Positions 2,354 to 21,557 of a stretch of 22,966 nucleotides of DNA are shown here, one piece after another. The notes below the pieces were generated by a model. The model searched no databases and had not been told where the DNA came from. It worked only from the letters and a program-made list of their open reading frames with translations. Made by a program: the position numbers and the translations under genes. The stretch comes from a virus, in IMG/VR virus record IMGVR_UViG_3300037258_000018, positions 1-22,966 of that record, one strand, 5' to 3'. Positions within the stretch are counted from its first letter, which is position 1. Each line of letters starts with the position of its first letter.

Positions 2354-2631
2354 TAGTGATGCCCGCGCGCGATATAATCGACCACGGCTCCGAACCCTGC
2401 GCCAATGACGGCGCCGACTGTCGAGATGGCGGCCACGAATCCGCGTTGGCGAGCGCCGGCCATTTCGAGCTTGCGGACGGAGCCATAGAGTTCGGCTTGG
2501 TGCGTCTCATCGTCCTTGATGTGCGCAACAAGAACCTCTTTTTGGCTGTCAACCTTGCCCTCAAGGCGGCCGATGTCGCCGCGCATGTTGATGAGGACGT
2601 TGTAAATGTCCGCGTTGGAAACTTCCGACAT
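2353..2631 (-). CDS. Coiled-coil plus C-terminal membrane protein, XhlA-like or holin candidate
   Basis: This 92-residue protein starts MSEVSNADIYNVL. A long amphipathic, heptad-like stretch at about residues 10-60 (NMRGDIGRLEGKVDSQKEVL) is followed by a Gly-rich membrane segment at about 64-87 (FVAAISTVGAVIGAGFGAVV) and a basic end. Phage proteins of this plan (XhlA-like) usually sit beside holins and endolysins. The frame stays open to 2844, but ATG at 2631 is preferred: it follows the tail-fibre stop by two bases, and the upstream part overlaps that gene. Its end overlaps the endolysin start by one base. It could be the holin itself or a holin partner. Confidence 0.65.
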   Translation of the reverse strand: MSEVSNADIYNVLINMRGDIGRLEGKVDSQKEVLVAHIKDDETHQAELYGSVRKLEMAGARQRGFVAAISTVGAVIGAGFGAVVDYIARGHH

Positions 2632-2633
2632 GG

Positions 2634-3872: not shown

Positions 3873-3884
3873 AATCCTATCCTA

Positions 3885-5789: not shown

Positions 5790-5805
5790 GGCTGTTATGG
5801 CTGTT

Positions 5806-7299
5806 TTAAGTTATGACGTTGATGTTGGCTGCCGCAATCGTCGGCTCTTGGTCAATACCCATCTGCACGTTCGACCCGCTAGACGGATTGGACGAGAACC
5901 CCACGAATATCGTGAGAATTGAAACCTCATTACCGATTGCCTGCACGGGCGCATAGTAGCGTGATGCCAAAATTTGAGACGCGGTGCGCTCGCGCAAACT
6001 GCCCTGCGTCTGCCCCGTGAACTGCGCGACGATGGCTTGCTGAACGAGAGTCACGATGTTCGCCGGCAACAGCGACGAGGCGGCGAGCGTCACTTGGAAA
6101 TACACAGGCGTCTGCGCCGGGTTGATGTAATTGACCACGTAGGACGGCACGGGCGGATTATAGCCACTCGGGTCGGTCACTGTCTCACTCACAAGAGTTG
6201 CGCCGGCCGTGCCTTGCTGCGCGCCCGTCACTATCCCCGACGACACGGTGCCTGTGGTGCTCACGGTGAGAGTGCCATGGCCGAGCGCGTGCGTGTAGGT
6301 TCCGAACGCAGTGACGATGCTATTGGGCTCAACGCCTGCGCCGTTCAAGGTCATGCCAATCGAGATGTAGTTGTTGCTGTTACCGTTGGCGGTCGTCGTG
6401 GCAATCGTGACTGTCGTCCCCGACTGCGAGCCGGTGCCGGTGAAATTTGGCTGATAGCTGACGCCCACGTTGGTCGCTGCCCAAATGGCCGCTGCTACCG
6501 ACGCCGCTGCGCCACCGCTGACCGCGATGTACACCGAGCGCGGCGCCACAGGGAACGAGGTTGAATTAGGGTTGCCATTGATGGCGCCTGATATTGTGGC
6601 GTCCGTGTTGTTCTGAGTGACGAACACGTCAATGACATCGGTCGTTGAGAAACACGCGGCATAGATCGCAGGCAATGAACCCTGCGCATTCAAGCCCACA
6701 GATTGTTCGCGGCGGTACTCGAACGCGGCCGGCGTCTCAACTGCGGCGCCAATGACGCCCGGCGAGACGTTGTTGACCGATTCCCACCCGTTAATAGCCT
6801 GATAGATAATAGTGACGGTATTGGCCGGGCACGGCGTTGGGCCGGCCACGACGTTCGCGAACGGCAGAGTGATGCTGCCGCCGATAGGAATGGTGCCGGA
6901 CTGCGAACAAATGTACACATTGCCGCTCGTATCTTGTACGAGCGCGCCGACCGGAATAGGCGTGCCAAAGGTTCCAACGCACAGGCAATTGACCGTCGTG
7001 GGCACGGCGGGATTACGGTTCAGAAAGTAAAAACGCGCGACGGCATCTTGCATGAATCCGGTGTTTTGGTCAGGGTCAACCTGATTGACGAACGTCGCAA
7101 ATACTGTGTTGGCGTTCGCAATCATCGCGGTCAAGCTCGACACGAGTTGCCCCTGTGGGCTGTTGAGCGCAGGATTTAAATTGCCACCGAACGCGGCGTT
7201 AAAATCTGCCTGTACGCCTGCGAGAATCGCGGCCTCAGTCGGTATCACCAACCCTGTCGGGGTAAACTGCGGCGTTGGAACGTTGGTCGTATTTGCCAT
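5806..7299 (-). CDS. Baseplate wedge protein, gpJ-like (Baseplate_J family)
   Basis: This 497-residue protein is the conserved ring-forming wedge of contractile-tail baseplates. Family features include the N-terminal LVIPTEAAILAGVQADFNAAFG, SPQGQLVSSLTAMIA, the HVDPDQN-like segment NQVDPDQNTGFMQDAVARFY, EYRREQS, and a C-terminal QAIVAQFTGQTQGSLRERTASQI. Residues of about 285-360 form an inserted beta module absent from ordinary family members as I know them (see separate entry). The frame is open to 7398, but ATG at 7299 (MANTTNVPTPQFTPTGLVIP) is preferred. It is two bases after the gp25-like stop, and the upstream residues lie inside that gene. Confidence 0.88.
   Translation of the reverse strand: MANTTNVPTPQFTPTGLVIPTEAAILAGVQADFNAAFGGNLNPALNSPQGQLVSSLTAMIANANTVFATFVNQVDPDQNTGFMQDAVARFYFLNRNPAVPTTVNCLCVGTFGTPIPVGALVQDTSGNVYICSQSGTIPIGGSITLPFANVVAGPTPCPANTVTIIYQAINGWESVNNVSPGVIGAAVETPAAFEYRREQSVGLNAQGSLPAIYAACFSTTDVIDVFVTQNNTDATISGAINGNPNSTSFPVAPRSVYIAVSGGAAASVAAAIWAATNVGVSYQPNFTGTGSQSGTTVTIATTTANGNSNNYISIGMTLNGAGVEPNSIVTAFGTYTHALGHGTLTVSTTGTVSSGIVTGAQQGTAGATLVSETVTDPSGYNPPVPSYVVNYINPAQTPVYFQVTLAASSLLPANIVTLVQQAIVAQFTGQTQGSLRERTASQILASRYYAPVQAIGNEVSILTIFVGFSSNPSSGSNVQMGIDQEPTIAAANINVIT
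6220..6447 (-). repeat. Inserted beta module in the gpJ-like wedge
   Basis: Residues of about 285-360 read FTGTGSQSGTTVTIATT, then SIGMTLNGAGVEPNSIVTAF, GTYTHALGHGTLTVSTTGTV and SSGIVTG. They sit between the end of one gpJ segment (WAATNVGVSYQPN) and its continuation (GATLVSETVTDPSGYNPPVP). The segment closely resembles the sheath insertion at 15187-15399, sharing TGSQ, VTIA, GAGV, FGTYT, LGxGT and VST..TVS in the same order. Confidence 0.75.
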
Positions 7300-7301
7300 G
7301 A

Positions 7302-7670
7302 TTAGATGCTCACTGCTTGCGTCTGTCCGTTGCTCGTCGTGAATGTCACTTGCCCTTTCGCCAATCGGCTCACTGAGTCGAAATTGTCTAGCGTGCAAAC
7401 CGCCGTCGCCACACTAGGCACGGTCAAGGATGCTTCAACGAATTGCTCTTGGAACACGGAAGCCGGCGGGGTCTGTCCGAATATCAGGCCGAAGTAATCC
7501 ACCCCCAAGCTCGTATCATAATAGACCTCACCGAGCACTGTGCGACACGCGCACGCCACATCCTGCGCAACCGCATAGGGTGGCGTGGCGAGGGCGATGT
7601 TGCCGTTGGCATCAAGGGTAAGGTCCCAAGTGCCTACGTCGAGCAACAGTGTCGAATAAGGTGCGGTCAT
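7302..7670 (-). CDS. Baseplate wedge, gp25/W-like
   Basis: This is a small 122-residue baseplate protein. The family pattern of gp25-like wedges is visible in WDLTLDANGNIALATPPYAVAQDVACACRTVLGEVYYDTSLGVDYFGLIFG: a linking strand, an A-x-D-V-x-x-x-x-R-T helix with a local E-x-Y, then the turn leading to a DY motif. Its position between the spike and gpJ genes is the usual one. It overlaps the spike stop by one base (TAATG) and ends two bases before the gpJ start, so the three wedge/spike genes are probably translationally coupled. Confidence 0.85.
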   Translation of the reverse strand: MTAPYSTLLLDVGTWDLTLDANGNIALATPPYAVAQDVACACRTVLGEVYYDTSLGVDYFGLIFGQTPPASVFQEQFVEASLTVPSVATAVCTLDNFDSVSRLAKGQVTFTTSNGQTQAVSI

Positions 7671-9346
7671 TAAGCAATCCTCCTAAACCAGTCTACAATA
7701 GCAGTCGAGGCCCCTGCCGTCACACCTTCCCAACAAAAACCAATCAGAGTCGGAACTGCGCCTATGAAAGTAGCCGGCAATTCCTGATAGATGGTCACAA
7801 AAGTCCCTATGTGTCCGCTAAAGCTGTATCTATAGTTTATGTGCGTGCCATCGTAATCGACTTGCAGGTATAGCGGCTGCGCAAAAAATGGACCGAGCGG
7901 CGGGTTAGCTGTGCCCGCATTGCCTGACGTGGTATAGCCCGGCGTCCCGGAGGCTGAGTAAGCCGTTGCCGAAAACGTCGTGTTGTTCGTGTAATGCTGC
8001 ACCGTCCAATATCCAGATGCTATGCCCCACACTGACAGCTTACCGTTCGTACCGTTGCTAATGACAAAACCAAATAACACCGATCCTTGAGTGTAGGGAA
8101 AGTATGATACTATTTTCATTTGATACGTCCAATTACCGGACGCGGGCGCAGGCTGAGTGTACTGCGAAATTGTGACAAATGAATTTGGAATAGCGACGTT
8201 CATTGCGCCTTGACCATTCAGAGTCGGAGTTGCCGTCGCTCCCAAATTGTAGCCGGTCCACGCAGTCGCCCCTGAGTATCGGGCACCAGTTGTATCGAGC
8301 ACTGTGCCATATTCAAACTCATCATTCGGCCCTATTCCGACTCCCGTTGGCGTCGCAGGGTGCATGTCGGGAGTTACATTGAACACAGTTGAGCCACCGC
8401 CCGAGCCATTCGAGGCAGCGGTGACTTGCCCTTGTGCGTTGACGGTAATGTTGGCACTGGTGTAACTGCCCGGCGTGACCGCCGTATTGGCGATGTTTAC
8501 CGTGGTGCCGCCGCCCGTGACGCTTATCCCGGTGCCCGCGGTCACAGTTTGCAGCGCGGTCACAGCGAGCGCGAGAGCGGCGATGGACGCGCTACTCAAG
8601 GCAATGGTGCCGCTCGTCGTGATGGGGCCGCCGGTCAAACCTGTGCCGGTCGCAACGCTCGTGACTGTGCCGCCGCCCCCGCCCCCACCGCCTATGAAGC
8701 TCGACGCGGTGACGCTGCCCGAGAACACTGCTGACGCGCCAGCAATGGTTGTCGTGGTGAGACCGCCCGATAGCGTGGATGCTCCCGTAACCGCGAGGGC
8801 TGCTTGCAGCGTCGTGTTGCCGGTGACATTCAACGTGCCGCTGTTCGTCGTCGCTGGCGCCTGAATCGCCACCGTGCCCGGCGACACAATGTTGATGCCC
8901 CCGCCGCCGGTTAGAAATTTGATGTACTGTGTGGGCGGGGTGTTCAGAATGCCGCCGATGTATACGCCGTCAGACCACGAGAATCGCCGGCCGCTCGCAG
9001 GGTTCGCCGCAGCCTTGGCGGAAATCACGGCGCTTATATCGCGTGAGGCGAAAATCATGGTGCCAATGTCGCCCACGGCCGGGTCGCAGATGATACCGTT
9101 GGTGCCGCCCTGCAATCGGAAGTATGGCCGACCGCCGAGGCGCCCGTGTGGAATAGAGATGCCTGCGCCGGACAGTAGGTTGACGAGCACGACAACATCG
9201 ACGGTCATGGCTCCCGTATCGACGGCGAGCACTTCCACCACACTCATCGTCTGAACGTCATCCAACACGCGCTGAATCTGAAACTCTAGCGCGTTGTAAT
9301 CGCTCGCGTCCGAAAACGGCGTAGCTTGACCAACTGCGGCGGTCAT
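7670..9346 (-). CDS. Baseplate spike with Gp138-type N-terminus fused to a fibre and lectin-like tip
   Basis: This 558-residue protein is probably the central membrane-piercing spike or a spike/fibre hybrid. Residues of about 19-145 match the Gp138 N-terminal OB-type domain (EFQIQRVLDDVQTMSVVEVL, GDIGTMIFASRDISA, GRRFSWSDGVYIGG). Residues 150-218 are VTG/TLxG repeats suggesting a trimeric beta-helix shaft. Residues 219-226 are eight consecutive Gly. Residues 227-315 contain the common fibre motif GTVTSVATGTGLTGGPITTS. Residues of about 325-558 form a beta-sandwich-like C-terminal domain (NDEFEYGTVLDTTGARY ... YLQVDYDGTHINYRYSF). ATG at 9346 overlaps the hub stop by four bases (ATGA), so it is preferred to the upstream start at 9379. 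The C-terminal coding region is visibly less GC-rich than the rest. Confidence 0.8.
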   Translation of the reverse strand: MTAAVGQATPFSDASDYNALEFQIQRVLDDVQTMSVVEVLAVDTGAMTVDVVVLVNLLSGAGISIPHGRLGGRPYFRLQGGTNGIICDPAVGDIGTMIFASRDISAVISAKAAANPASGRRFSWSDGVYIGGILNTPPTQYIKFLTGGGGINIVSPGTVAIQAPATTNSGTLNVTGNTTLQAALAVTGASTLSGGLTTTTIAGASAVFSGSVTASSFIGGGGGGGGTVTSVATGTGLTGGPITTSGTIALSSASIAALALAVTALQTVTAGTGISVTGGGTTVNIANTAVTPGSYTSANITVNAQGQVTAASNGSGGGSTVFNVTPDMHPATPTGVGIGPNDEFEYGTVLDTTGARYSGATAWTGYNLGATATPTLNGQGAMNVAIPNSFVTISQYTQPAPASGNWTYQMKIVSYFPYTQGSVLFGFVISNGTNGKLSVWGIASGYWTVQHYTNNTTFSATAYSASGTPGYTTSGNAGTANPPLGPFFAQPLYLQVDYDGTHINYRYSFSGHIGTFVTIYQELPATFIGAVPTLIGFCWEGVTAGASTAIVDWFRRIA

Positions 9347-10302
9347 GACTGCACCGCCGGAAGCGCGCCGGGCGGCCATAATTTCATGTCAGTGAACCAC
9401 GCACCGCCGGGCTTTTGGCATTCGATAGTGTGGACGAGGGGACCGATGGCCCAATTGCCATTCGCTGAACTGTTGAGCGTCGCTTGCGTGCCGGCTTGCG
9501 TACCTATGTTTTGGTCAATCACAACGTCACTGCCCTGAATTGTGAGCGGTCCCAAGAGGCGCAGCGCCGGGTTAAACACCGAGCGCACGTTGAGGTATCC
9601 ATTGCCGAGCACTTGCGGGTAGCCCACGAGACCGGATTGCGGCGTCAGCAAAAACGGTTGAATCGTCGTGCGCGCCATGCCGGCCGGCGTGATGATAATG
9701 GACGAGGTTTCGCCCGGGTCCACAGCGAGATACGCGCCCGCGGCCCGCACCGCCTGTCGTAGCTGCGACATGAGCGTTCCCGAGAAATAAGCGTTGGTAG
9801 TCGAGCCGGTCACGCCATCGTTCTCGAACGTAAACGACAGCTTTGATGCAATGCTGCCGATGATGTCAGACCACTGCGCGATGCCGGGAAAGGCTGTCGG
9901 TTGCGCTGGCGTCAATTGCTCATACCCGCCATTCTGCCCGTGAACCATCAAGTACACGTCGGGCGACTCGGAATATTCCGGGCCGCTTTGAATGATTTGG
10001 CCCGAGAAAATATAGACGAATCCCGAGCCCGAGTCAGCCTCAATCTGCATGGTGTTGCGAGTGTACTGTGGTTTGCCGCTGTCGGTCTGCACACGAGCAA
10101 GGGCGTTCATATCAGCTTGCCGCATTCCATAGATGCGCAACGTTGCCTCGGGGAATGCGGGGATTCCCGATTGCTTGACCACAGCGGACATGCGCAGTCC
10201 CGACACTTGCAGCGTGTTCGAGTTGGTCCCGGGAAACACTGCATTGCTGTTCGTCAGCGTGAATGTCACCCGGATATTTTTGACTGTGTAACTGCTAGCC
10301 AT
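9343..10302 (-). CDS. Baseplate hub protein, E217 gp41-like
   Basis: This 319-residue protein should form the hub that joins tail tube and spike. The N-terminal half has the hub-type beta fold with SGLRMSAVVKQSGIPAFPEATLRIYGM and ADMNALARVQ. Then follow IEADSGSGFVYIFSGQIIQSGPEYSESPDVYLMVHGQNGG and a helix-rich part (IIGSIASKLSFTFENDGV, LMSQLRQAVRAAGAYLAVD). The PTGI-like C-terminal part includes QSGLVGYPQV and VRSVFNPALRLLGPLTIQGSDV, typical of T4 gp27/E217 gp41-type hubs. It overlaps the upstream plug gene by eight bases and the downstream spike gene by four. The specific family name is from memory of the pattern, not a search. Confidence 0.75.
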   Translation of the reverse strand: MASSYTVKNIRVTFTLTNSNAVFPGTNSNTLQVSGLRMSAVVKQSGIPAFPEATLRIYGMRQADMNALARVQTDSGKPQYTRNTMQIEADSGSGFVYIFSGQIIQSGPEYSESPDVYLMVHGQNGGYEQLTPAQPTAFPGIAQWSDIIGSIASKLSFTFENDGVTGSTTNAYFSGTLMSQLRQAVRAAGAYLAVDPGETSSIIITPAGMARTTIQPFLLTPQSGLVGYPQVLGNGYLNVRSVFNPALRLLGPLTIQGSDVVIDQNIGTQAGTQATLNSSANGNWAIGPLVHTIECQKPGGAWFTDMKLWPPGALPAVQS

Positions 10303-10666
10303 AAATCGCCGTCAAATCCGATTGCTCGATATAGAGCAACACATATTGCGAGTTGAGGCCGGTGTAGTACGGCGGCGTCCCGTTGAACGTTGGCGGACCT
10401 CCCTGCGTGGCGAGTGTGTCGAGAAACATGAAGTCTCCCGACACGCCCAAGTATTCACGGTCAAGCAACAACCGTGTCCTGTCGAGGCAACGCGATGTGT
10501 TTAATATCGGCGTGCCGTTGACAGTGAGGTCAAAGAAAAGCCCCGCGGCTACTCCGTACTCATCGACAGTCGGTTGCTTTTGATACACCGCAATTTGGCA
10601 ACTCTGACCGTCGAGAACTATGCTTAGCGTCTGCGATGGAACTGCGCTGAGTGGGACTTGCAACAT
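10295..10666 (-). CDS. Baseplate plug protein, Pam3 gp18-like
   Basis: This 123-residue protein is entirely beta-rich. It begins VPLSAVPSQTLSIVLDGQSCQIAVYQKQP and continues LFFDLTVNGTPILNTSRCLDRTRLLLDREYLGVSGDFMFLDTL. The ends pack around PPYYTGLNSQYVLLYIE. This matches the small plug domain described for the cyanophage Pam3 baseplate, whose gene also lies between the Dit-like and hub genes. ATG at 10666 follows the Dit-like stop (10677) by ten bases. Confidence 0.7.
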   Translation of the reverse strand: MLQVPLSAVPSQTLSIVLDGQSCQIAVYQKQPTVDEYGVAAGLFFDLTVNGTPILNTSRCLDRTRLLLDREYLGVSGDFMFLDTLATQGGPPTFNGTPPYYTGLNSQYVLLYIEQSDLTAIYG

Positions 10667-10676
10667 GGGGCTAAAC

Positions 10677-11444
10677 CTATTGGGCCAACCATTTCAAAAA
10701 CGCAACCTCATCGTTCGGGTTCGCGAGCGCTTGCGCCGCAGCCGTCGAAATCTGAGGGCTTGGAGTCGTGGGCAAACTCAATGCCTGATTCGTGGTCGGG
10801 ACCGCCGAGGGCACGCTTGAGTTCGACAAGTCGGTACTCGTGGTCGCCTGTCCGTACTGCACTGGCACGGGGTTAATCTGAATGAAAAACAACTCAACGT
10901 CGAAATAGGCGTGGTTCTCGGTGCCGCGCCGGGCAAGTTCGGCTCGCGTCGCGCTCATGTTCTTGTACGTCTTTTCCGGCGTGCGGACGGTGTAGAGCGC
11001 AATGTTGCTCTGAGCAATCACCGCGTCAACCTCTTGCAGGAACGTCGTGCGGTCCGCGAGCGTGCCGCCTTTCGTCAAAACAATTGAGCACTCATAGGGC
11101 AAACCCACGCGGTTGTACGTCGCGAACTGACCTTGCTGGATAGGGAAATTTCCAATGCGATTCTCTTGGCGCCAACCCATGTCCATCACCGAGTCGGCCG
11201 TAACCGCCAAATCGTCGTTCTCGTCATAGACACCCCACACAATCTGAGACTGCGTTGACTGCCAGATGGCGGACACCGTGGACGGCGTTGCAATCGTCGG
11301 CGCGAGCAATGCGGGGAACAGCAACGAGCGCGCCAACTGCGGCACGCCCGGAAGTGCCGGCACGTTCGGGAACGGTGGCGTGGCGACCGTAATGGCGATG
11401 CCGAGCCCGGCGCCCCATCCTTGAGTAATGATAGCGGCACTCAT
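10677..11444 (-). CDS. Dit-like baseplate/tail-end protein
   Basis: This 255-residue protein lies directly after the tape measure, where the distal-tail or initiator subunit is expected. Its centre carries a pattern of conserved baseplate proteins: WGVYDENDDLAVTADSVMDM, RIGNFPIQQGQFATYNRVGLPYECSIVLTKGG, RTTFLQEVDAVIAQSNIALYTVRTPEKTYKNM and a closing DVELFFIQINPVP. The C-terminal 65 residues are Ser/Thr/Pro-rich and probably flexible. ATG overlaps the tape-measure TGA by four bases (ATGA). The Dit-like family assignment is moderately confident; a role in tail initiation follows from position. Confidence 0.65.
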   Translation of the reverse strand: MSAAIITQGWGAGLGIAITVATPPFPNVPALPGVPQLARSLLFPALLAPTIATPSTVSAIWQSTQSQIVWGVYDENDDLAVTADSVMDMGWRQENRIGNFPIQQGQFATYNRVGLPYECSIVLTKGGTLADRTTFLQEVDAVIAQSNIALYTVRTPEKTYKNMSATRAELARRGTENHAYFDVELFFIQINPVPVQYGQATTSTDLSNSSVPSAVPTTNQALSLPTTPSPQISTAAAQALANPNDEVAFLKWLAQ

Positions 11445-13018
11445 GATTGCCCCGTATCGGCTTGAGTGACCGAGAGCTTGCGATTGATGGCCGCCGGCAA
11501 TTGCTCGGCCACATGGCGCGGGTCAGCTTGCGGCGCATTGATGTTGATAGTGTCGATGTCCACGGTAGTCGTCGCACCGCCCGAGTTCCCGCGGGAACTC
11601 TGCGAACGGCGGGTATTGCCCGACTCGTAATCCGTGATGATTTGCGTGAGCTTGGCAATGTCGCCCTTGCCCACTTCCTCGTGACCGAGCGCGTTTTTGA
11701 CGTAGGCTTGATACGCAGGAATGTTGTTGTTCTTGGTGTCGCCGCCCTCATAGGCGTTGATGAGCGCGTCAACCGAGGTCAGCCCGCGGCCAATTTTGGC
11801 GGCCAAGTCCCCCTCTAGCGCAGCCTTGCCCTCGGCAAACGATGCATACTTGCGTTTGTTGCCGAACCTGTCTTGGATGTTCCCGGGATTGTTGTTTCGC
11901 GCGGCGAGACTGCCCGCCTTGGGTCCCACGTAACCATCGGTGCCCGATTGGTCCGTACCTGTGGCCGAGGTCACAACGTTGCCGGACTGCGCTGCGGTCT
12001 GTGTCGCCCACAGCTTGGCAATGTCAGCGTCAGCCTGTATGTCGGCCGCCTTGCTACGCGCGGATTGGTCGTTGAGGATGGCCGCCGCGCCCTTGAAATC
12101 GCCGTGCAGCGCGGCTCCTATTGCGGCAGCGGCTCCACCAACCGAATCGCCCACGCCCACGAAAATGCGCTTGATGGCAATGGCCGCGGACCCGATGAGC
12201 TTGAGCCCCGTGGAAAACTCGTCGCTCTGCAAATTGATTTCCCCGAACACGGAGAACAACTGCTTGAGCGCGGGAGTGACGGCCGTCAATATCATCTGCC
12301 CGGCAGCCTGAATGTGCAGTCCCACCGCGCGCCAATACTCTTGAAGTTCCTGCGCCTGCTTGACGCTCGCCTCGTTGACGGCGTTGTTTTGCTCGGACAG
12401 CCGCAATTGCTGTTCGCGCTCTTGCCGCGTCTCAATGAGGTACTTGATGTGTCCCTCGTCGAGCCCGGCTTGGCGAAATAGTGCCGTCTGGTATTGCTCG
12501 CCATATTGAGCGGTCTTGTCCGCCAATTCCTCGAATATCGCGCCTTGATTCCGTAACTGTCCGTTCGAGTCGCGCACGTTGACGCCGACTTGGCTGAGGA
12601 TGTTGAGGAGCGCCGTAGGACCCGCGATGCCGGCGGTGAGGTTCGAGAAATCGTTGGTGAGCTTCGCGAAATCGCTTTGGACGCCCTCAGCGCTTTGCCC
12701 GGCTAGGACCGCGGCATTGCCCCACTTGTTCAGTTCGTGGGCGCTCATGCCGATTTGGTTGGCCGTGCGACCCAACTGAGCCTCGCCCGAGTTCAGCGCG
12801 CCGAGCCACTTGGCGAATCCCGTGGCCGACTCGAACCCGAGGAACAACCCGGCCACGGTTTTACCTACGTCGAGCAAGGACTTGGTTAAATCCTCGGACG
12901 ATGCTTTGACCTTGCGGGCCGTCTCGCTCGTTTCTTTTTCGGCTTGCTCGCGCCCTTTCTTATAGTTCGAGGCGTCGAGACCGAGTAGAACGACTAGGCT
13001 GTCAATTACGGTTGCCAT
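11441..13018 (-). CDS. Tail tape measure protein with lysozyme-like domain
   Basis: This 525-residue protein sets tail length and is ejected first into the cell. The N-terminal part is helical and charged (ASNYKKGREQAEKETSETAR). A tape-measure segment follows (LGRTANQIGMSAHELNKWGN ... ALFRQAGLDEGHIKYLIETR), then hydrophobic helices at about 235-315. Residues of about 372-446 (AARNNNPGNIQDRFGNKRKY, FAEGKAALEGDLAAKI, TSVDALINAYEGGD, NIPAYQAYVKNALG) resemble a lysozyme/transglycosylase-like domain found in phage virion proteins. It may open the cell wall locally during entry. It is short for a tape measure, which implies a short tail. ATG at 13018 overlaps the stop of the frameshift ORF by one base (TGATG); the TTG one codon upstream is less likely. 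Confidence 0.88.
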   Translation of the reverse strand: MATVIDSLVVLLGLDASNYKKGREQAEKETSETARKVKASSEDLTKSLLDVGKTVAGLFLGFESATGFAKWLGALNSGEAQLGRTANQIGMSAHELNKWGNAAVLAGQSAEGVQSDFAKLTNDFSNLTAGIAGPTALLNILSQVGVNVRDSNGQLRNQGAIFEELADKTAQYGEQYQTALFRQAGLDEGHIKYLIETRQEREQQLRLSEQNNAVNEASVKQAQELQEYWRAVGLHIQAAGQMILTAVTPALKQLFSVFGEINLQSDEFSTGLKLIGSAAIAIKRIFVGVGDSVGGAAAAIGAALHGDFKGAAAILNDQSARSKAADIQADADIAKLWATQTAAQSGNVVTSATGTDQSGTDGYVGPKAGSLAARNNNPGNIQDRFGNKRKYASFAEGKAALEGDLAAKIGRGLTSVDALINAYEGGDTKNNNIPAYQAYVKNALGHEEVGKGDIAKLTQIITDYESGNTRRSQSSRGNSGGATTTVDIDTININAPQADPRHVAEQLPAAINRKLSVTQADTGQS

Positions 13019-14130: not shown

Positions 14131-15861
14131 TTACTGCACGTCAACAGATGACATGCTGATTTGCTGCACGCTGCCGCCGTCAGTGTAATAGAAATTGATG
14201 ACCGGCGACCCGCGGTTGCCGCGGACGATGGCGCCCGGGTCGAGGATTTGCAGATACCATCCGGTGTTCTGAATCGTGGCCGTCGCGTTCGGGTCGTTGG
14301 TCGCGTTGTTGAGTGCGGCCGACTGCGCGGTGGACAACGTGACGCCGGCCACGAATGCGCCGAAATTCGCCATCTGCTGAATCGGTCCGAGGAGCGCCGC
14401 ACGAATGAGGTTGTATCCACGGGTCACATACGGCACGGCCGGGACGGTCTGCAACAGTGTCATCAACGCCAATTGGAACTGCGCGTTGAAATAGATTTGG
14501 TTGATGTAGGTATCGAACCACTTGAACGGCCCCGAGATTTGACCGGGCTGGTTTTCGATGAACTGCTGATTGGCCGTCGCATACGCGCCGTAGAAATTGT
14601 ACCCGTTGGCAATCAGGTTGTTTGCCACGGTTTCGCTCGTGACTTGCGCGGTGAGTCCGGCCTGCCCACGGAACGCGGCGACAGTGCGGCCGTTCGCCTG
14701 ATTGAAATTGATGCTCGCGGCGATAGCCGTTTGGAACGCGGCAATGACGCCGGTCCCGCTAATATCGAACACGGGCATGATGCCGGTATCGTTGGCTGCA
14801 TTCACGATGTTGCCGAACGAACCCGTGGCATCGTCCGAGGTCGTGGGCGATTGGTCGGAATCTTGGCACACATACAGATAGCGGTTGTTGGTCGTTTGGA
14901 CCCATGCCGCGAATGCTTCCTTGTTGGAAAGCGACTGTTCGGTAACGGTCAGGAACGTCGCCCAATTCTGCGTCGCTGCAACCACAGTGCCCATGATGGC
15001 CGCGGGCGTCGGCGCTGCCGCACCCTGCGAGGTCACGGCGCCGGTCGCGGCGGTGAGGTTCAGACCGTTCGCGAACGAGCCGGCGGTGGCAAAGCCAATC
15101 GTTGAGGTCGTGCCGGTCGCGCCCGAGCCATCGGCAATCACGAATGCATCACGCAGCGCGTCGTAAGTGCAAGTCGCCTGTCCGGCCACATCGACGGCGC
15201 CAAGCGAGACAGTGGCCGAGGTCGAGACGTTCACAGTACCCGTGCCGAGCAATACCGTGTAAGTGCCGAACGACGTGATAGTAGCCGGGCCATCGACTCC
15301 CGCGCCTATCAAAATATCGCCCACGGCAAGCTCGCCTGAGACCGTCGAGGCAATCGTGACAACGGCCGCGGTCTGCGAGCCCGTGCCGCTAAATACCGCA
15401 GTGGTCGATTGCAACCCGGCTTGAATGAGTGCTGCCGCATTGGTGAATGAGGTTGCGCCTGAGAGATTGATGGCGCTCGAAACGTTCGGCTGTCCGTTGA
15501 TGGTAATGGTGAGCGTACCGGAAAACGCCTGCAACTGTGCAAGCGAGAGAGCGGCCACCGAGCCACCCCGCAAGTACGCGGCAACCGCCGCGCTGTTGAA
15601 CTGAACGAAATACAGGGTGCTAGGCAACGCCGTGCAATTGGTGAACCCCGCGAAATAGACGTTGGCAAGCACCGTCTCGGGCGCATTCGGGCCGAACCAA
15701 TCGGCCACCGCCACCGCACTCGGGAATCCCTGTGCCGCGCCAATCGGTATCGACGGGTCAGAGGTCAGATAAACGGAGTTGAGCGAAAGCGGATTTCCCC
15801 CCGCGCCAAGGACGCCGGGGATTACATTTGCGAGGGCCGAGGCCGGAATGGATGCCGTCAT
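14131..15861 (-). CDS. Tail sheath protein (DUF3383 family) with an inserted beta module
   Basis: This 576-residue protein is the contractile outer sheath. DUF3383 features: an N-terminal SLNSVYLTSDPSIPIGAAQGFPSAVAVADWFGPNAPE, VYFAGF, INGQPNVSSAINLSGATSFT, a middle TVTEQSLSNKEAFAAWVQTT, and a C-terminal KWFDTYINQIYFNAQFQLAL followed by RGYNLIRAALLGPIQQMANFG and GAIVRGNRGSPVI. Residues of about 155-225 form an extra module that splits the stretch AALIQAGLQ ... ATCTYDALRDAFVIADG. ATG at 15861 lies after the largest intergenic gap of the unit (68 bases). The insert would be expected on the sheath surface, since a buried insert would block assembly. Confidence 0.88.
   Translation of the reverse strand: MTASIPASALANVIPGVLGAGGNPLSLNSVYLTSDPSIPIGAAQGFPSAVAVADWFGPNAPETVLANVYFAGFTNCTALPSTLYFVQFNSAAVAAYLRGGSVAALSLAQLQAFSGTLTITINGQPNVSSAINLSGATSFTNAAALIQAGLQSTTAVFSGTGSQTAAVVTIASTVSGELAVGDILIGAGVDGPATITSFGTYTVLLGTGTVNVSTSATVSLGAVDVAGQATCTYDALRDAFVIADGSGATGTTSTIGFATAGSFANGLNLTAATGAVTSQGAAAPTPAAIMGTVVAATQNWATFLTVTEQSLSNKEAFAAWVQTTNNRYLYVCQDSDQSPTTSDDATGSFGNIVNAANDTGIMPVFDISGTGVIAAFQTAIAASINFNQANGRTVAAFRGQAGLTAQVTSETVANNLIANGYNFYGAYATANQQFIENQPGQISGPFKWFDTYINQIYFNAQFQLALMTLLQTVPAVPYVTRGYNLIRAALLGPIQQMANFGAFVAGVTLSTAQSAALNNATNDPNATATIQNTGWYLQILDPGAIVRGNRGSPVINFYYTDGGSVQQISMSSVDVQ
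15187..15399 (-). repeat. Inserted beta module in the tail sheath
   Basis: Residues of about 155-225 read VFSGTGSQTAAVVTIAST, then GELAVGDILIGAGVDGPATI and TSFGTYTVLLGTGTVNVSTS. They interrupt DUF3383 between a helix (NAAALIQAGLQ) and a strand (TCTYDALRDAFVIA). The order of motifs (TGSQ, VTIA, VGD.L.GAGV, FGTYT, LGTGT, VST..TVS) matches the insertion in the gpJ-like wedge. Confidence 0.75.
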
Positions 15862-15900
15862 TGGGTTAACCCTTCGAGGTTCGAGAATATGTCAAACCGG
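15862..15900 (-). promoter_or_regulatory. Possible promoter/operator upstream of the sheath gene (weak)
   Basis: The 68-base gap before the sheath holds TTGACA at 15895-15890 (a perfect -35 consensus), a direct repeat TTCGAG-g-TTCGAG on the + strand, and the palindrome GGGTTAACCC at 15863-15872, just before the ATG. No good -10 hexamer is seen at 17-18 bases. It may be a regulated late promoter, a repressor site, or chance. Confidence 0.25.
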
Positions 15901-15929
15901 ATCATAGCCCGACCCGTCCTAAATCACAA

Positions 15930-16538
15930 CTAGGGCAGTTCCGGCGCGAAACCATCCGGCGGTGGGTTGGCGGGCGCCGCGTCGTACATGTTCACGGGAC
16001 CGACTGTATCGGCGTACTGCTGAGGCGTGGTCACGACCGGGTTATATTGCAGCCGGGCAGTGATAATCCAACGGTCCTCGTATTGCTGTTCCGCGTTGGT
16101 GAGCGGCGCCCGGATAGGGTCATCCGCGTACAGCGGCGCGCAGGCAGGCACGAGCGCGCGATAGGAAACATCATCGCGCAGCAAGGTCACAAGGATGTCC
16201 GCCCAATCGCTCGCGTTCGGCCCGTACACGTCCAATTGCATATCGAGCTTTTGTCCCATCTCCTCAGTCTGTGAGCTTGGGTCATCAACGTCCGGCGTCA
16301 CATCGACGTTCGTGCGCAAGCGCTTTTTCGTCATGGCGGTTATCACGACGAAGCCTTGCGGGTAGCCCTCACCGACGAGCGGCAGAGTATCCGGCATCGA
16401 CGTTCGATTGGGATAGCCTTGGATGACTTGCGGCGGATTCGTCGATAGACCGAGTTGCGTGACAATGAAATTGCCGAGTGCGGTGTACACGGCTTTGATG
16501 CCATTGGCGAGCACAGCTTGCGGAGTGGGCGCGCTCAT
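15930..16538 (-). CDS. Phage neck terminator protein, gp12-like (LIC_12616-type)
   Basis: This 202-residue protein is expected to cap the tail tube at the neck. Family-like pattern: AVYTALGNFIVTQLGL, VIQGYPNRTSMP, FVVITAMTKKRLRTN, KLDMQLDVYGPNASDWADIL, CAPLYADDPIRAPLTNAEQQYEDRWIITARLQYNPVVTTPQQYAD. It is placed just before the sheath, as in related contractile phages. ATG at 16538 (MSAPTPQAVLANG) overlaps the previous TGA by four bases; the longer open frame to 16616 lies inside the neighbouring gene and is not needed. Confidence 0.72.
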   Translation of the reverse strand: MSAPTPQAVLANGIKAVYTALGNFIVTQLGLSTNPPQVIQGYPNRTSMPDTLPLVGEGYPQGFVVITAMTKKRLRTNVDVTPDVDDPSSQTEEMGQKLDMQLDVYGPNASDWADILVTLLRDDVSYRALVPACAPLYADDPIRAPLTNAEQQYEDRWIITARLQYNPVVTTPQQYADTVGPVNMYDAAPANPPPDGFAPELP

Positions 16539-16957
16539 ACGTTGACCCCGGGCTTGGGCGTGTCGGTTTGCAGGACAACAATTAGCTTTGTCCAACCGCC
16601 GTTCTCGACATTCCACGGGCCGGCGGGCTCAACCACTTTCCAGTTTTGCACGGGCTCGCCTTGGAAGGTTCGGAACTGCAAGAGGTCTCCACCCTTCGCC
16701 TGCACGCGCACGATACCCTGTGTGTTGCCAAACATGTACACGGTGCGAAACACGCCCGTCATGTTCAGTCGCTCAATCTGGCGCAAGCCCTCTTTGTCGA
16801 GCGGCTGAATTTGAATGCGGACGGTGACGCCCGGCGCGTAGGCCGCGGTCTGCGTGAAATCCGAATTACTCGTGGCGCCAATGCTCTTGAGGTACAACGC
16901 CGTGCGGTCCGGGTTCACCGAGTTGATTGCGCCGCGTACTATGCCGTGTAGGTTCAT
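16535..16957 (-). CDS. Conserved neck protein of unknown function
   Basis: This 140-residue protein is predicted to be beta-rich: TVRIQIQPLDKEGLRQIERLNMTGVFRTVYMFG, GIVRVQAKGGDLLQF, QNWKVVEPAGPWNVENGGWTKLIVVLQTD. Genes of this look lie in the neck block of related contractile phages, often without a named function; a head-tail stopper role is possible. It overlaps both neighbours by four bases (ATGA at each end), so it should be made in step with the tail-completion and terminator proteins. Confidence 0.65.
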   Translation of the reverse strand: MNLHGIVRGAINSVNPDRTALYLKSIGATSNSDFTQTAAYAPGVTVRIQIQPLDKEGLRQIERLNMTGVFRTVYMFGNTQGIVRVQAKGGDLLQFRTFQGEPVQNWKVVEPAGPWNVENGGWTKLIVVLQTDTPKPGVNV

Positions 16958-17463
16958 TTCTTGACCTCGAATGCCACGGCGTCCTGCATATCGCCGCTAT
17001 CGACCAACGGCTTATCGAAGCCCTTGACCTTGATTGTAAATTCAGAGTTCGGCGGCGCGCTCCACGTAGCTATCGCCCGCTGCACGTCGCCAACCATGTC
17101 CTCACCAAGTATAGCCAACGATGCCTGCCCATCATAATCGGTTGTCTTAAGCGCAGCGGCGAGCACGTCGGCCCATGTCTTGGATTGCTTCGCAATGGTC
17201 GTTCGGAAAAACGGTCGCGCGGGCGCGGTCGCAGTGCCGTACTCATTCCAGAATGCAGCCTGCGCGATAGGCAACGGCGGTTGCAATTTCGGCGTCGCGT
17301 TACTGCCGACAGCTTTGAGAAAGCGCGCATTCGTCCGCGGCGGGTAGCGCGAGCCCTCAAGGAAACCCACGCGGAGCACGCCGGCATTTGTGACTTTTTT
17401 CTCAATCGAGGCGAGCGCGAGTGTCAGTTTTTTGCCGCCAACGACCTTGACGTTAGCAGCCAC
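16954..17463 (-). CDS. Tail completion / minor tail protein, HK97 gp10-like
   Basis: This 169-residue protein (start GTG at 17463) acts at the head-tail junction in the HK97 gp10/lambda Z group. Typical pieces: [15 protein letters not shown], then [29 protein letters not shown], the helix [18 protein letters not shown] and a C-terminal [16 protein letters not shown]. The start is uncertain. The frame is open to a TTG at 17556, and GTG codons occur at 17472 and 17463, all inside the end of the DUF4054 gene. GTG 17463 gives a first part [14 protein letters not shown] like that of relatives. No clear ribosome-binding site is visible; coupling to the upstream stop (11-base overlap) is likely. Confidence 0.75.
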
Positions 17464-18238
17464 GACCGCCACCGCCCCACGGACCGGACCCGCCACCCCA
17501 AGGGCCGGGGCCGAGACCGATGAGCGGGTTGTACGCTCGCGCAGGCGCCGGTACAAAAATTGCCGTGCGGTATCGAGCGGTCATTGTCCAATAGTCCGCG
17601 CCGTACTTGGTCTGTAGAAAATACGCGGCGTTTGCATTCGGCGGCGCGCTCCACTCGGACGACACGGACACGTCGCCTTCGCTCGCATTGTTGATGCGAC
17701 CGACGATGCCTAGCGGTGGCGTGACGAGCGGCACGCCCGGTACAATGATGGTCTCAGACGCAACCGTCTGCGACGGAGCAATGTTATATGTACCAATTCC
17801 GCCGGTTCCGCTGCCGAGACTCGCAATGGCAGAGCCAACGATGAGCAACGAACTGCCGATGCTCGGGCCATCGTAGAGCGACAGGCCGACGCTCAACGGG
17901 ATTTGCGAGCCCGGATTGATGGCGGTCACGTTCATGACACCAGCGGTCACACTTGCCACGAATGACGCAGCGGGCGAGCCCACGCCGGCATCGTTGATGC
18001 CCTGGTGAATTGTCGCAAGGTGCGCCGTCAGCAAGTAGAGCAAGAACATGCGTTGGTTGCCGTCCTGCACTCGCGAGAAACACGTGTTGTTGAGGAGGAA
18101 CGTTGCCCCTGTGAAATCATTGGCGAGCGAGATAGGATTGATGCCCGTAAATTCCGGGTACGTCGCAAGAAACTCAGGCGCAGAGAATTGCACGATTCCC
18201 GGCGTGAAGGTCTGCGGAGCACATGGAATTACGGGCAT
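17453..18238 (-). CDS. Head-tail adaptor (DUF4054 family) with inserted beta module and Gly/Trp-rich tail
   Basis: This is a 261-residue neck adaptor. Residues 17-85 show the DUF4054 start ([41 protein letters not shown]). Residues 175-232 show its end ([40 protein letters not shown]). Between them, residues of about 92-167 are an extra beta module. The last 20 residues are low complexity, with two GPWGGG units, ending in Cys. This end overlaps the start of the next gene. DUF4054 proteins connect the portal/head to neck proteins. ATG at 18238 follows AAGGAAC. Confidence 0.85.
17738..17965 (-). repeat. Inserted beta module in the DUF4054 adaptor
   Basis: Residues of about 92-167 read [20 protein letters not shown], then [20 protein letters not shown] and [20 protein letters not shown], then [13 protein letters not shown]. 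They lie between the AHLATIHQG helix and the [12 protein letters not shown] strand of DUF4054. The VTAV/I, VGxxL, GTGGxGTY and SQTVAS pieces match modules in the cement protein and, more loosely, those in sheath and gpJ. Confidence 0.75.
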
Positions 18239-18247
18239 CGTCGTTCC

Positions 18248-18688
18248 TTACTCGTCGGTGCGGGTTTCGAGCACGCCAGCGTCGGCGCCCTCGGACTTGA
18301 CCTTGACTTTGCGGTCCTTGTCGATGGGTCCAAGAATGACCGGCGTTCCCACCGAATCGTTCTTGCGCGTGGCCGCGTCCGCGTGCGACTTAGCCGCGAA
18401 CAAAACTTCATTGCGCAACAGCCATGACTTAGGATGCTCGGCGCACCACTGTTCCCAAAACGCTTTCGGCACATTGAAATTGATGTATGCCTGTGGCTTC
18501 AATTTGTTCGGCGCCGGATTCTGTAGATTGATCGGGCCGCCATTCGAGTTCCAACCCTTGAGGGTGAACATTTGGTAGTGCTCCCCCTTCGCAGGGGCGC
18601 TGCCGACAACGGCCTTTTGCAATCCGATTTCGAGCTTGATTCCATTGGGGAGCTTGCACCCCACTGCTACTGTTTCAACATTCGCCAT
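18248..18688 (-). CDS. Conserved phage protein of unknown function (head region)
   Basis: This 146-residue protein begins MANVETVAVGCKLPNGIKLEIGLQ. It has a beta-rich front half with FTLKGWNSNGGP, then NFNVPKAFWEQWCAEHPKSWLLRNEVLFAAKSHADA, and a charged end KVKVKSEGADAGVLETRTDE. Proteins with VGCKLPxG near the start and a VPxxFWxxW helix occur at this place, between capsid and DUF4054 genes, in related contractile phages, as far as I recall. No function is known to me. ATG at 18688 has an AGGAG ribosome-binding site. Confidence 0.75.
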   Translation of the reverse strand: MANVETVAVGCKLPNGIKLEIGLQKAVVGSAPAKGEHYQMFTLKGWNSNGGPINLQNPAPNKLKPQAYINFNVPKAFWEQWCAEHPKSWLLRNEVLFAAKSHADAATRKNDSVGTPVILGPIDKDRKVKVKSEGADAGVLETRTDE

Positions 18689-18698
18689 GACTCAACTC

Positions 18699-19316
18699 CT
18701 ATGGTGTAAAAAACGCGGCACTCGACACAATGCCAAGCTGCCCCGGCATTATGTTATAGCACACGAGGAACGGTGTCGCCTCGCAATTGGCCGGCGGCGC
18801 AGTGGGAAGCCCCGAGACGGCCGAGCCATCCACGAGTGAGGCATACACGGTGTTGCCCGCTATGCCGCCCCCGGCAAACCGTAGCCAGAAATTCCCGCGG
18901 TCGTGCATCGTGACCACAAGGCCCGGCCGGACCCGCAGACCGCCGAACGGCCAAGGCGTCGCGGTTGGGTCGTAGAACTCCCATGTGTAGGATGCCTGCC
19001 AGCCCGCCAGATACTTCGGGCCGCCCACGACGCCGCCATTGGCCCCATTGAGCGAGCGGAAGGGAATGACGATGCCTTGGGCATCCTGTGCGGTTACGCG
19101 GATGTTCTGAGTGGTTCCCGTCGATGGGTCGCCCCACGCGAACCGCCCTTGCAGGACGCCACCCGCGGCCGAGTCGCTCGTCCACGCATGAACGCCGGCA
19201 TTGACAGAGCGAAAGGGGGCGCGAGCTTCAAGGTTCTGCGCAATGGGCCATGAAGCAAAAGCGCCCTCATAGTTTCCCATGAGGGCGCCTTGCGCGCCTT
19301 GTGACGGCGCGGACAT
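18699..19316 (-). CDS. Cement-like capsid decoration protein (module-free paralogue)
   Basis: This 205-residue protein lies 12 bases after the capsid gene. It aligns by eye with the cement-like protein upstream of the capsid gene: EGAFASWPIAQ / KGDFASLNPYS, GGVLQGRFAWGDP / GGLLVGNFAWVGP, LVVTMHDRGNFWLRFAGGGI / FMVTLINGGDLWAEFATGAT, NTVYASLVDGSAVSG / MKVYADPNDGAPIA, and a strand-rich end. In related phages cement proteins bind the outside of the capsid lattice and stabilise it. This copy lacks the large inserted modules and instead has about 45 different residues around GPKYLAGWQASYTWEFYDP. A terminator-like hairpin lies over codons 10-19; M13 (19280) is an alternative start within it. Confidence 0.7.
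   Translation of the reverse strand: MSAPSQGAQGALMGNYEGAFASWPIAQNLEARAPFRSVNAGVHAWTSDSAAGGVLQGRFAWGDPSTGTTQNIRVTAQDAQGIVIPFRSLNGANGGVVGGPKYLAGWQASYTWEFYDPTATPWPFGGLRVRPGLVVTMHDRGNFWLRFAGGGIAGNTVYASLVDGSAVSGLPTAPPANCEATPFLVCYNIMPGQLGIVSSAAFFTP
19257..19288 (-). terminator. Intrinsic terminator-like hairpin just after the capsid gene, inside the next CDS
   Basis: On the minus strand GCGCCCTCAT (19288-19279), an eight-base loop GGGAAACT, and ATGAGGGCGC (19270-19261) form a perfect ten-base-pair stem. It is directly followed by TTTTGCTT (from 19260). GC-rich stem plus T-run is the classic rho-independent form. It lies about 40 bases past the capsid stop but within the first 20 codons of the following gene, so it may act as a partial terminator or as an RNA 3'-end stabiliser. 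Confidence 0.65.
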
Positions 19317-19328
19317 GCTGAGGTCGCC

Positions 19329-20363
19329 TTATTCGCCGAGCATCGTGGCGATGAACGCCGGATACTTGATGATGGTCCCCCACGTGCCGGCAGACTTTTT
19401 CTGCTCCCACGAGGACGACTTGGTGACGACGGCGTGCGCGCGCATTTTCTCGGTGAAAGCGGACACGACCGTTTCTTGACCCTCAACCATGGGCGCAATC
19501 AACTGCACGAGTTCCGTTCCGCCCTCGCCCCCGCCGCCGTTGATGGCGAACTCGGGGATTGTCACGATGGACAGGTTGGGGAAATTCGTCTTTATCTGCG
19601 TGTACACGTTGACGTTGTACTGGTTCGTGTTGTTGAAATTCGTGACGTTGCCCGGCGAGATGCCGAGATTGAACTTGGTTTCCGCGTCCACCAACCCATC
19701 GCCCTGCGCAATCATCTGTTGCACGAGACGCAGAACGTCACCGTAAATCACGGTCGCATCAGCACCAAACCACGAGGAGGTCGGGGCAATCGGCGCCGGC
19801 AGCGCCGGGTCATTCGTGCCGCCGTAGCATTGCAAGTTCGAGATGCCGTACAAGTACGACAGGTTTTGGAACTTGGTGATGGCGAGGGCAGACGCCTTGT
19901 TGATGTTCGCGGCGCGGTCAATGCGAGCCTCGGCGGCGCGCTCCAACTCACGCTGACCCCAACGGGTGTTGACTTGGAAATGGTAGCTCTGACGAGAAAC
20001 CCAATTCTCGTTCGAGTTCGCCATTCCGCCCTGCGAGTAGTCGCCATACGACTCGGTTTCGCCGGTACGTTCCACAACGGGGAACATGCTGGTATCGACG
20101 ACCCAAGTTCCGTACTTGGTCTCACCGTACAGTACCGCGGCCTTAGTGGGGCTCACCAAAACCTCGATTTGCGCGGGGTCAACGTAGGTCGTGAACAGCG
20201 AGGGCACGCCCGCGTTCGCCTGCGTCACCAACTGCGGCTGAGCGTCGAGCGCCAAGCTGCGGTCGAACAACTGCATGCCCGAGGCTTCGGCCTGAATGCC
20301 GGCCATGAAATGGATGCCGTAGCGGCGGGCTGCGTCGGCGTGGTCGAATGCAATGCGCTTCAT
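19329..20363 (-). CDS. Major capsid protein (DUF2184 family)
   Basis: This 344-residue HK97-type capsid protein is the main shell subunit. The DUF2184 pattern is visible: PSLFTTYVDPAQIEVLVSPTKAAVLYGETKYGTW, VVERTGETESYGDYSQGGMANSN, YHFQVNTRWGQRELERAAEARIDRAANINKASALAI, SYLYGISNLQCYGGTNDPALP, and a C-terminal LVQLIAPMVEGQETVVSAFTEKMRAHAVV ending KYPAFIATMLGE. It starts at ATG 20363 with AGGAAA about ten bases upstream. The leader ACACAGGAAACACGACTATG is nearly the same as that of the cement gene upstream. It is followed by a terminator-like hairpin, which may help set its high expression. Confidence 0.88.
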   Translation of the reverse strand: MKRIAFDHADAARRYGIHFMAGIQAEASGMQLFDRSLALDAQPQLVTQANAGVPSLFTTYVDPAQIEVLVSPTKAAVLYGETKYGTWVVDTSMFPVVERTGETESYGDYSQGGMANSNENWVSRQSYHFQVNTRWGQRELERAAEARIDRAANINKASALAITKFQNLSYLYGISNLQCYGGTNDPALPAPIAPTSSWFGADATVIYGDVLRLVQQMIAQGDGLVDAETKFNLGISPGNVTNFNNTNQYNVNVYTQIKTNFPNLSIVTIPEFAINGGGGEGGTELVQLIAPMVEGQETVVSAFTEKMRAHAVVTKSSSWEQKKSAGTWGTIIKYPAFIATMLGE

Positions 20364-20399
20364 AGTCGTGTTTCCTGTGTCTCTGATTCTGCTACTCGA

Positions 20400-21557
20400 T
20401 TAAACCGCGGTCGCCGAAATCTTGGCAATCTCGTTGTTTCCGGCCGTATAGGTCCCAGTAACGGTGAAGTTCGTAAGCTGCGCCGTGCCTGCAACTGTCA
20501 CGGTCGTTGATGCGAAATTCTGCCCGGCAGGTTCAACCGCGTAAATGCCGATTCCACCCTGTACAGAATTGTCCACAACGGGGGCTGCGGTGATGTTGAT
20601 GGCGGCATCCGCGCTCAACACATACACGCCAATTCCACCCGGGGTTCCGCTCGTCTGCGAGGCAATCGTACCTACGGTCACGCCATTGGAACTCACGACC
20701 GCGCCGATAAGCAACGGGCCGGATTCCGAGTTGACGCTGTTGACGGTGAGGCCGGTTCCGCTCGTGACTGCGGTTGCAGTGCCCGAGAATCCGGCGTTCT
20801 GCAATCCAATCACCGTACCTGCCGCAACACTCGATCCGCTCACGGCGTCGCCGAAATTCAACGAACCATCCGCAACCGCGGTCACAACCATGTAACCGCT
20901 CGTGCTGGTAACGGCACCCGCGAGGGTCCCGGTAGCCGCAGCGGACATTTCGTATGTGCCGCGCGAGCCGTAGCCGTAACCAGCCGTGACGGTAAGCTGT
21001 TGCACAATGGTCGTGCCACTCGGAATGTTCGACGCGCTGATTACGTCGCCTGGCAGTAAGAGCCCGGCGGTATCTGCCGTAATGGTCAAGGTCGTGCCGG
21101 CGACTACTGACGCCGTGCCGGTTCCCGTGAATCCGCCGACCGCAGTGACGGTGCCGAGTGTCGGCGTGGAGTTCGCTGCAATCGGTGCCCCGTCATTCGG
21201 GTCCGCGTAAACTTTCATGCCGGGGGTTGCGCCAGTCGCAAACTCGGCCCACAAGTCACCGCCATTGATGAGCGTGACCATGAAACCCGCCGGAATCAAC
21301 AGCGTGCTCTCGCCGAGAAATTCGGTGATGAGCGCCTGTTCACTACGCTGGCAGAAACCGAGTTGGTATCCGCTCACAAAGGATTGCGAAACCTGACCGG
21401 CCGGACCAACCCACGCGAAGTTACCGACGAGCAATCCGCCCTCGGGTGCGACGAGCGCGCCGGGACCGGCGACGATGCTGGAATACGGATTGAGCGAGGC
21501 AAAATCGCCCTTGACGCCGGGAGCTTGAAGGCGGTTCACTTTATTGGGAAACGGCAT
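20400..21557 (-). CDS. Cement-like capsid decoration protein carrying a run of beta modules
   Basis: This is a 385-residue protein. Residues 1-128 and about 356-385 together form a cement-type domain (VKGDFASLNPYSSI, GLLVGNFAWVGPAG, LIPAGFMVTLINGGDLWAEF, VYADPNDGAPIA, then TNFTVTGTYTAGNNEIAKIS). Residues of about 140-345 are two to three Gly/Thr/Val-rich beta modules inserted near the end of that domain. The paralogue after the capsid gene lacks them. The longer open frame (to 21665) is rejected: ATG at 21557 has AGGACA at good spacing, and the first residues fit. The protein should decorate the capsid outside, so the modules would be displayed on the virion surface. Confidence 0.75.
   Translation of the reverse strand: MPFPNKVNRLQAPGVKGDFASLNPYSSIVAGPGALVAPEGGLLVGNFAWVGPAGQVSQSFVSGYQLGFCQRSEQALITEFLGESTLLIPAGFMVTLINGGDLWAEFATGATPGMKVYADPNDGAPIAANSTPTLGTVTAVGGFTGTGTASVVAGTTLTITADTAGLLLPGDVISASNIPSGTTIVQQLTVTAGYGYGSRGTYEMSAAATGTLAGAVTSTSGYMVVTAVADGSLNFGDAVSGSSVAAGTVIGLQNAGFSGTATAVTSGTGLTVNSVNSESGPLLIGAVVSSNGVTVGTIASQTSGTPGGIGVYVLSADAAINITAAPVVDNSVQGGIGIYAVEPAGQNFASTTVTVAGTAQLTNFTVTGTYTAGNNEIAKISATAV
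20523..21137 (-). repeat. Tandem beta modules in the cement-like protein
   Basis: Module 1 (about 141-217) has VAGTTLTITADTAGLLLPGD, VISASNIPSGTTIVQQLTVT and GSRGTYEMSAAATG. Module 2 (about 218-254) has GYMVVTAVADGSLNFGDAVS followed by GSSVAAGTVIG and then lacks a GTY end. Module 3 (about 257-345) has GTGLTVNSVNSESGPLLIGA, VVSSNGVTVGTIASQTSGTP and GGIGVYVLSADAAI, plus a partial extra GGIGIYAVEPAGQNFASTTV. All follow T-L-T-V-T-A, L-x-x-G-x-x-V, GTxI, GxGxY order. Confidence 0.7.

Follow-up and report, generated by a model that had tools for sequence, protein, structure and literature searches.

We observed that the capsid cement, neck adaptor, tail sheath and baseplate wedge genes of one myophage carry copies of a single module of ~75 residues. 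This is likely an uncatalogued, promiscuous, all-beta decoration domain of tailed phages that enters loops of virion proteins by in-frame insertion. Mobility of the module is well supported. A broader proposal is evenly balanced in our judgement: the fold would be distinct from that of Ig domains, and the module would form a second large promiscuous virion-decoration system that invades many loops, even within its own copies; one binding chemistry would then appear on the capsid, neck, sheath, baseplate and fibres of a single particle.

The window, the whole stretch of DNA analysed, is an IMG/VR record of 22,966 bases, which it contains in full. It is a myophage structural operon on the minus strand. 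Family scans assigned the major capsid protein to phrog_264 and the hub to PF22759 (E217 gp41). The window sheath, DUF4054 adaptor and gpJ wedge were related by sequence to E217 gp31, gp27 and gp44, the match of DUF4054 to gp27 being weak (E 0.02). The predicted structure of the cement core resembled phage capsid decoration proteins. The host genes and the module copies are as follows.

5806-7398, minus strand: gpJ-like baseplate wedge gene (PF04865, phrog_6; relative of E217 gp44), one module
6211-6447, minus strand: module in gpJ, residues 318-396 (pairwise and module HMM; empty in L010)
14131-15861, minus strand: tail sheath gene, DUF3383, 576 residues (PF11863, E 7.4e-114; phrog_205), one module
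15181-15405, minus strand: module in the sheath, residues 153-227 (between E217 gp31 residues about 152 and 157; empty in L018)
15930-16616, minus strand: neck protein without a module in the window (the homologue in the Paraburkholderia elongata prophage, phrog_1876, carries one)
17453-18238, minus strand: DUF4054 head-to-tail adaptor gene, E217 gp27-like, 261 residues (PF13262, phrog_302), one module
17735-17974, minus strand: module in DUF4054, residues 89-168 (phrog_38233 and module HMM; empty in L013)
20403-21557, minus strand: capsid cement gene, beta-tulip type core plus modules (PF22758/PF23982, phrog_2122; probable start ATG at 21557)
20403-20462, minus strand: final strand region of the cement core, where the core resumes past the modules (from the module-free RCIP0114 and Amjad_SA cement proteins)
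20463-20561, minus strand: cement module 2, second half, HMM 56-83 (profile)
20562-20798, minus strand: cement module 3, in a hairpin loop of module 2 (profile; absent from L014 and other two-module relatives)
20796-20909, minus strand: cement module 2, first half, HMM 17-49 (profile)
20910-21158, minus strand: cement module 1 (profile; AlphaFold2 region with pLDDT about 80)

A sequence-only reading of the window had proposed one module type in these four host proteins. The scans confirmed the families, and shuffle tests, HMMs and phrog_38233 bore out the homology. In pairwise tests, the sheath and gpJ modules matched at E about 1e-12, 15.5 SD above shuffles. Cement unit 1 scored 4.1 SD above shuffles against the sheath module (0 of 1000 shuffles reached the score) and 5.9 SD against cement unit 3. 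The low-complexity Gly/Thr/Ser/Val composition of the module inflates weak matches, and the DUF4054 module was marginal, near chance, in direct pairwise tests. An HMM whose only input was the sheath and gpJ modules matched the DUF4054 (1.4e-4) and cement (2e-4) modules of relatives, as well as modules at the corresponding sheath and gpJ positions. An iterated profile over 16 related contigs recovered all four window module positions, and the independent PHROGs profile phrog_38233 matched the window DUF4054 module (E 5e-8). A profile made from the modules thus found them again in proteins that had not been given to it, as the reading had suggested checking. Of the shared motifs listed in that reading, GTGxxGxGTY is degenerate in the window sheath and gpJ copies. 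Judged by the profile, pairwise and phrog_38233 matches, the four window segments are homologous, and the copies in sheath, DUF4054, gpJ and cement share a common ancestry.

The cement protein had been described as holding two to three units. We found three modules (overall 20463-21158), which do not stand in a row: unit 3 is nested in unit 2. Profile matches along the window cement covered model positions 3-73, 8-53, 4-80 and 55-84. The two halves of unit 2 were complementary, scoring 29 bits (model 17-49) and 16 bits (56-83) separately and 38 bits when joined, with a profile built without the cement modules of the window and of L013. The cement of L013 had the same nested arrangement, and L014 and other relatives had units 1 and 2 only. 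In the AlphaFold2 model of the window cement, module 2 and the nested region had pLDDT below 50, too low to confirm the nesting. On these profile matches, the cement carries two tandem modules, the second interrupted by a third, so that one module is inserted into another.

We assessed breadth by scanning viral contigs. At least 476 candidate loci were confirmed, using a consensus typed by hand as the query and HMMs to check the matches; this sample is shaped by the query and should not be read as a census. A window-derived profile found the module in 80/80 viral loci examined. After masking of the modules, 216 host frames fell into 45 groups without detectable mutual similarity, a number that includes a few fragments and is more safely taken as at least 40. 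Named hosts included head closure Hc3 (two modules), an SU10-type adaptor, gpJ, a tail fibre, a minor head protein, the phrog_1912 head protein, a baseplate wedge, a head protease/capsid fusion and an esterase-like protein. Matches in genome collections were mainly from Pseudomonadota. The profiles phrog_21413 and phrog_38233 (unnamed / tail fibre) contain the module, with matches to these members of up to E 7e-11. Each of the two families covers a whole protein and includes the module as a single unlabelled segment, and a module profile would annotate such a segment in hundreds of viral proteins. Searches of isolated phages by tblastn with the consensus or a single module returned nothing, for which the low-complexity filter is the likely cause, and this is not evidence of absence. 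By these comparisons the module is promiscuous, residing in host proteins without homology outside it. The earlier proposal of spread among several structural genes of one phage holds for this phage and was too narrow, the module being common to many unrelated phages.

Lys and Arg together made up 0% of the modules in three of the four window hosts and 1.8% over 289 modules. Their near-absence fits an inert, protease-tolerant, polar surface. In the mechanism that we propose, ~75-residue copies, almost free of Lys and Arg, would insert in frame into surface-exposed loops. The module ends would lie close together, so that host fold and assembly survive. Ordinary recombination or gene conversion would carry copies from place to place, both within a phage genome and from one genome to another, and mobile-element machinery would play no part. 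Dozens to hundreds of copies per particle may then build a decoration layer; the sheath of E217 has 204 subunits (PMC10329688), and a module in the sheath alone could therefore amount to about 200 copies on each particle. The putative role of the layer is weak multivalent contact with a surface polymer, such as glycans of the host envelope or matrix.

Particle stabilisation is the main alternative role. A module acting as a spacer or clamp would pack on neighbouring subunits and stabilise capsid, neck and sheath without a ligand, which we regard as possible, if rather doubtful. It would suit an uncharged, Thr/Ser/Gly-rich and nearly Lys/Arg-free beta domain, and copies do occur in cement and sheath, where added domains have been proposed as particle stabilisers (PMC9230969). 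However, free presence or absence in close relatives and the use of lineage-specific loops fit specific packing poorly, and the module occurs in tail fibres and the esterase-like protein too. We place putative weak multivalent binding just on the probable side and prefer it to clamping, because the loops differ and copies come and go, as would be expected of a tethered domain and not of a specific interface.

Structure prediction with 46 modules gave an all-beta AlphaFold2 model (mean pLDDT 84, core about 90). In Foldseek searches of the PDB, the best E value among the 50 matches listed was 0.26, those of highest probability were beta-barrel domains of F1-ATPase (TM about 0.55), and none of the 50 was an Ig structure. 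Among predicted viral structures (BFVD), matches with probability 1.0 lay within tail fibres, a tip attachment protein, a P22 gp10-type protein and an HK97 capsid protein. The inserts thus share one profile and one predicted fold, which recurs in independently predicted viral structures; the lack of a common fold, which the earlier reading had named as refuting, was not seen. Scans of the 46 modules found no Ig-type family in Pfam at E up to 1 or in NCBIfam at E up to 0.1, and the Pfam scan gave no carbohydrate-binding module family. Pfam and NCBIfam held no model for the module, and the PDB held no relative by sequence. PASTA (PF03793) was not matched by the modules and in the window was found only in a separate DUF2612 protein (3885-5789). 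Among the open-access papers searched, we found none that contained the peptide motifs of the module or described the domain.

The textbook case of a promiscuous virion domain is the phage Ig-like domain, whose role remains under debate. Such domains are found in proteins of the tail fibre, baseplate, tail tube and capsid and in Hoc (PMC9022992), and sheath proteins carry them too (PMC9230969). As the work of Fraser et al. 2006 is presented via PMC9022992, they (Big_1, Big_2, I-set, FN3) are beta domains of about 80-100 residues, inserted or appended. Like the module, they are promiscuous among virion proteins and dispensable in some relatives, and they are proposed adsorption aids. The module differs in that it matches no Ig profile, retrieves no Ig fold in the PDB matches listed, and nests; its hosts also include cement and head-closure proteins, neck adaptors and neck terminator-type proteins. 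By analogy the module behaves as phage Ig-like domains do; we do not claim membership, because Ig profiles do not match and the fold comparison lends no support. The question whether this is a known Ig-like family, raised by the earlier reading, is answered in the negative as far as Pfam, NCBIfam and Foldseek allow. A divergent Ig-like domain (Big/I-set/FN3) missed by sequence profiles is improbable: size, beta content, promiscuity and insertion in sheath and baseplate match known phage Ig-like behaviour (PMC9022992, PMC9230969), but the 46 members lack any Ig-type Pfam or NCBIfam match and the 50 PDB matches listed for a confident model, all at E 0.26 or worse, include no Ig structure.

Other known systems share single traits with the module. 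Additional domains of tail sheaths (PMC9230969) are also accessory beta domains on a conserved sheath core; they are described as mostly Ig-like, and the text of that paper includes neither DUF3383 nor E217. The window module, unlike these, is common to non-sheath proteins. A study of lactococcal 936 phages (PMC6669499) reports carbohydrate-binding modules on virion parts, including the neck in one phage group, and provides a precedent for the function of a decorated particle; the module here has no match to such families. T4 Hoc (PMC10385173) likewise consists of beta domains repeated in a string on the capsid surface. It is a separate protein of Ig-like domains, whereas the window modules sit within core virion proteins. 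If a second domain, apparently unrelated to Ig, does the same on sheath, neck and capsid, whole-particle decoration would be seen to be a general strategy.

We compared each host protein with module-free relatives. The L018 sheath, about 67-73% identical to the window sheath in the flanks, matched window residues 1-155 and 228-575 with a 2-residue gap between them. The L013 DUF4054 protein matched window residues 1-84 and 169-260 with contiguous residues, none lying between. The L010 gpJ protein matched window residues 34-317 and 395-530. In the cement proteins of Klebsiella phage RCIP0114 and Pseudomonas phage Amjad_SA, the core continued directly into the last strand without a module. Each of L018, L013 and L010 was empty in a different gene and kept modules in its other genes. 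The E217 sheath, gp27 and gp44 sequences had no insert at the module sites, and alignment of the window sheath to gp31 placed a gap at the module. Sheath matches to isolated-phage relatives were split in two pieces, as were the longer DUF4054 matches, which is what absence of the module there predicts. The flanks therefore rejoin in all four genes once the module is removed, as had been claimed, and close relatives lack the segment, contrary to the refuting case of the earlier reading, in which all of them would carry it as part of the core fold. On these alignments the module is dispensable, being present or absent between close relatives. Such natural presence/absence pairs in every major virion part are material for testing the effect of decoration.

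Mapped on module-free references, gpJ modules lay at four loops in four phage lineages: about 290 (window group), 243-251 (P. elongata prophage), 361-398 (L050) and 394-404 (L070). Sheath modules lay at two loops, about 170 (window, L108, L115) and 193-198 (P. elongata). By this mapping, independent insertions recurred at different loops of the same protein families, and the loops used provide a map of insertion-tolerant sites in phage structural proteins. We consider it very improbable that the module is ancestral to each host family and that the empty sites are deletions. Individual empty sites may be losses; L018 has a gpJ module and no sheath module, and window-type sheath and gpJ modules form one clade, which makes a sheath loss in L018 plausible. 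However, module-free forms occur in E217 and in isolated-phage relatives, whose matches break at the module, and different lineages use different loops. Empty relatives, a shared profile and a shared predicted fold together support the reading of the module as a mobile accessory domain.

In a tree of the window group, DUF4054 modules formed one clade, gpJ modules another, and sheath and gpJ modules grouped together, gpJ modules appearing nested in sheath modules. We did not adopt donation from sheath to gpJ, which this tree suggests, since an AU test leaves a single sheath clade acceptable (p 0.136). Deep forks were poorly resolved in the module trees; on the well-supported branches of a broad tree, host labels changed at least 3 times for sheath, at least 4 for gpJ and at least 4 for cement. 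Modules of different genes were up to 74% similar in DNA over 185 bases. Convergence of non-homologous, low-complexity Gly/Thr/Val beta stretches is hardly credible, since biased composition and near-chance DUF4054 similarity in direct pairs stand against shuffle-controlled scores, position-specific profile matches in relatives outside the build set, this cross-gene DNA similarity, a single confident predicted fold and a split cement module whose halves match complementary profile parts. In the window, module G+C was near that of the flanks, and no direct repeats longer than 8 bases spanned the module junctions. The insertions look old in this lineage, with no mobile-element signature left. 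Recent import by composition was rejected on the flank-like G+C. A self-mobile element (intein, intron or transposon) was rejected as well, the unit being one beta domain with no machinery and no flanking repeats.

The related P. elongata prophage, resident in a cultured bacterium, had a cement with three modules and one module each in sheath and gpJ. Its DUF4054 protein was empty and its phrog_1876 neck protein filled, the reverse of the window. All seven significant module matches (E <= 1e-5) in the 11.1-Mb P. elongata genome lay within one 20-kb prophage cluster. In ten related viral records, profile matches were confined to open frames with the lengths of the four host proteins. As far as these profile searches reach, the module is restricted to virion genes in the related phages tested. 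The module matched 6 of 300 Burkholderiaceae genomes, and a lysogen in a cultured soil bacterium, P. elongata, makes the system testable.

We observed the module in one or more proteins of the following other loci (coordinates are local to each locus):

L106 (Methylovulum MAG contig), 6033-8567: fusion of head maturation protease and major head protein, with the module appended
L108 (Sulfuritalea MAG contig), 562-9974: modules in the cement protein, the phrog_1912 head protein, the phrog_1876 neck protein and the sheath
L114 (Bacteroidota bin, phage or cellular), 5913-12800: 2296-aa frame with five modules in tandem
L164 (Paraburkholderia elongata prophage), 7954-9522: module and lysophospholipase L1-like esterase family (phrog_8480) in one protein

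The L108 sheath carried two modules in tandem, and a fifth module match on this contig lay in a frame without a known family (6572-7195). Among the predicted viral structures in BFVD, the predicted module fold also matched the collagen-repeat proteins A0A1V0SCQ2 and A0A1V0SDM6 of the giant virus Indivirus ILV1, whose identity to the module was 30-40% across the matched region.

Within the window, we also noted:

3885-5789, minus strand: DUF2612 virion protein with three PASTA domains (PF03793, E 4e-31)
18699-19316, minus strand: second cement paralogue (phrog_2122), without the module

The PASTA domains, which precede the DUF2612 family domain, are a further borrowed module, of a binding type, in the operon shared with the module-bearing genes. 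The module-free cement paralogue was located between the major capsid gene and the DUF4054 gene.
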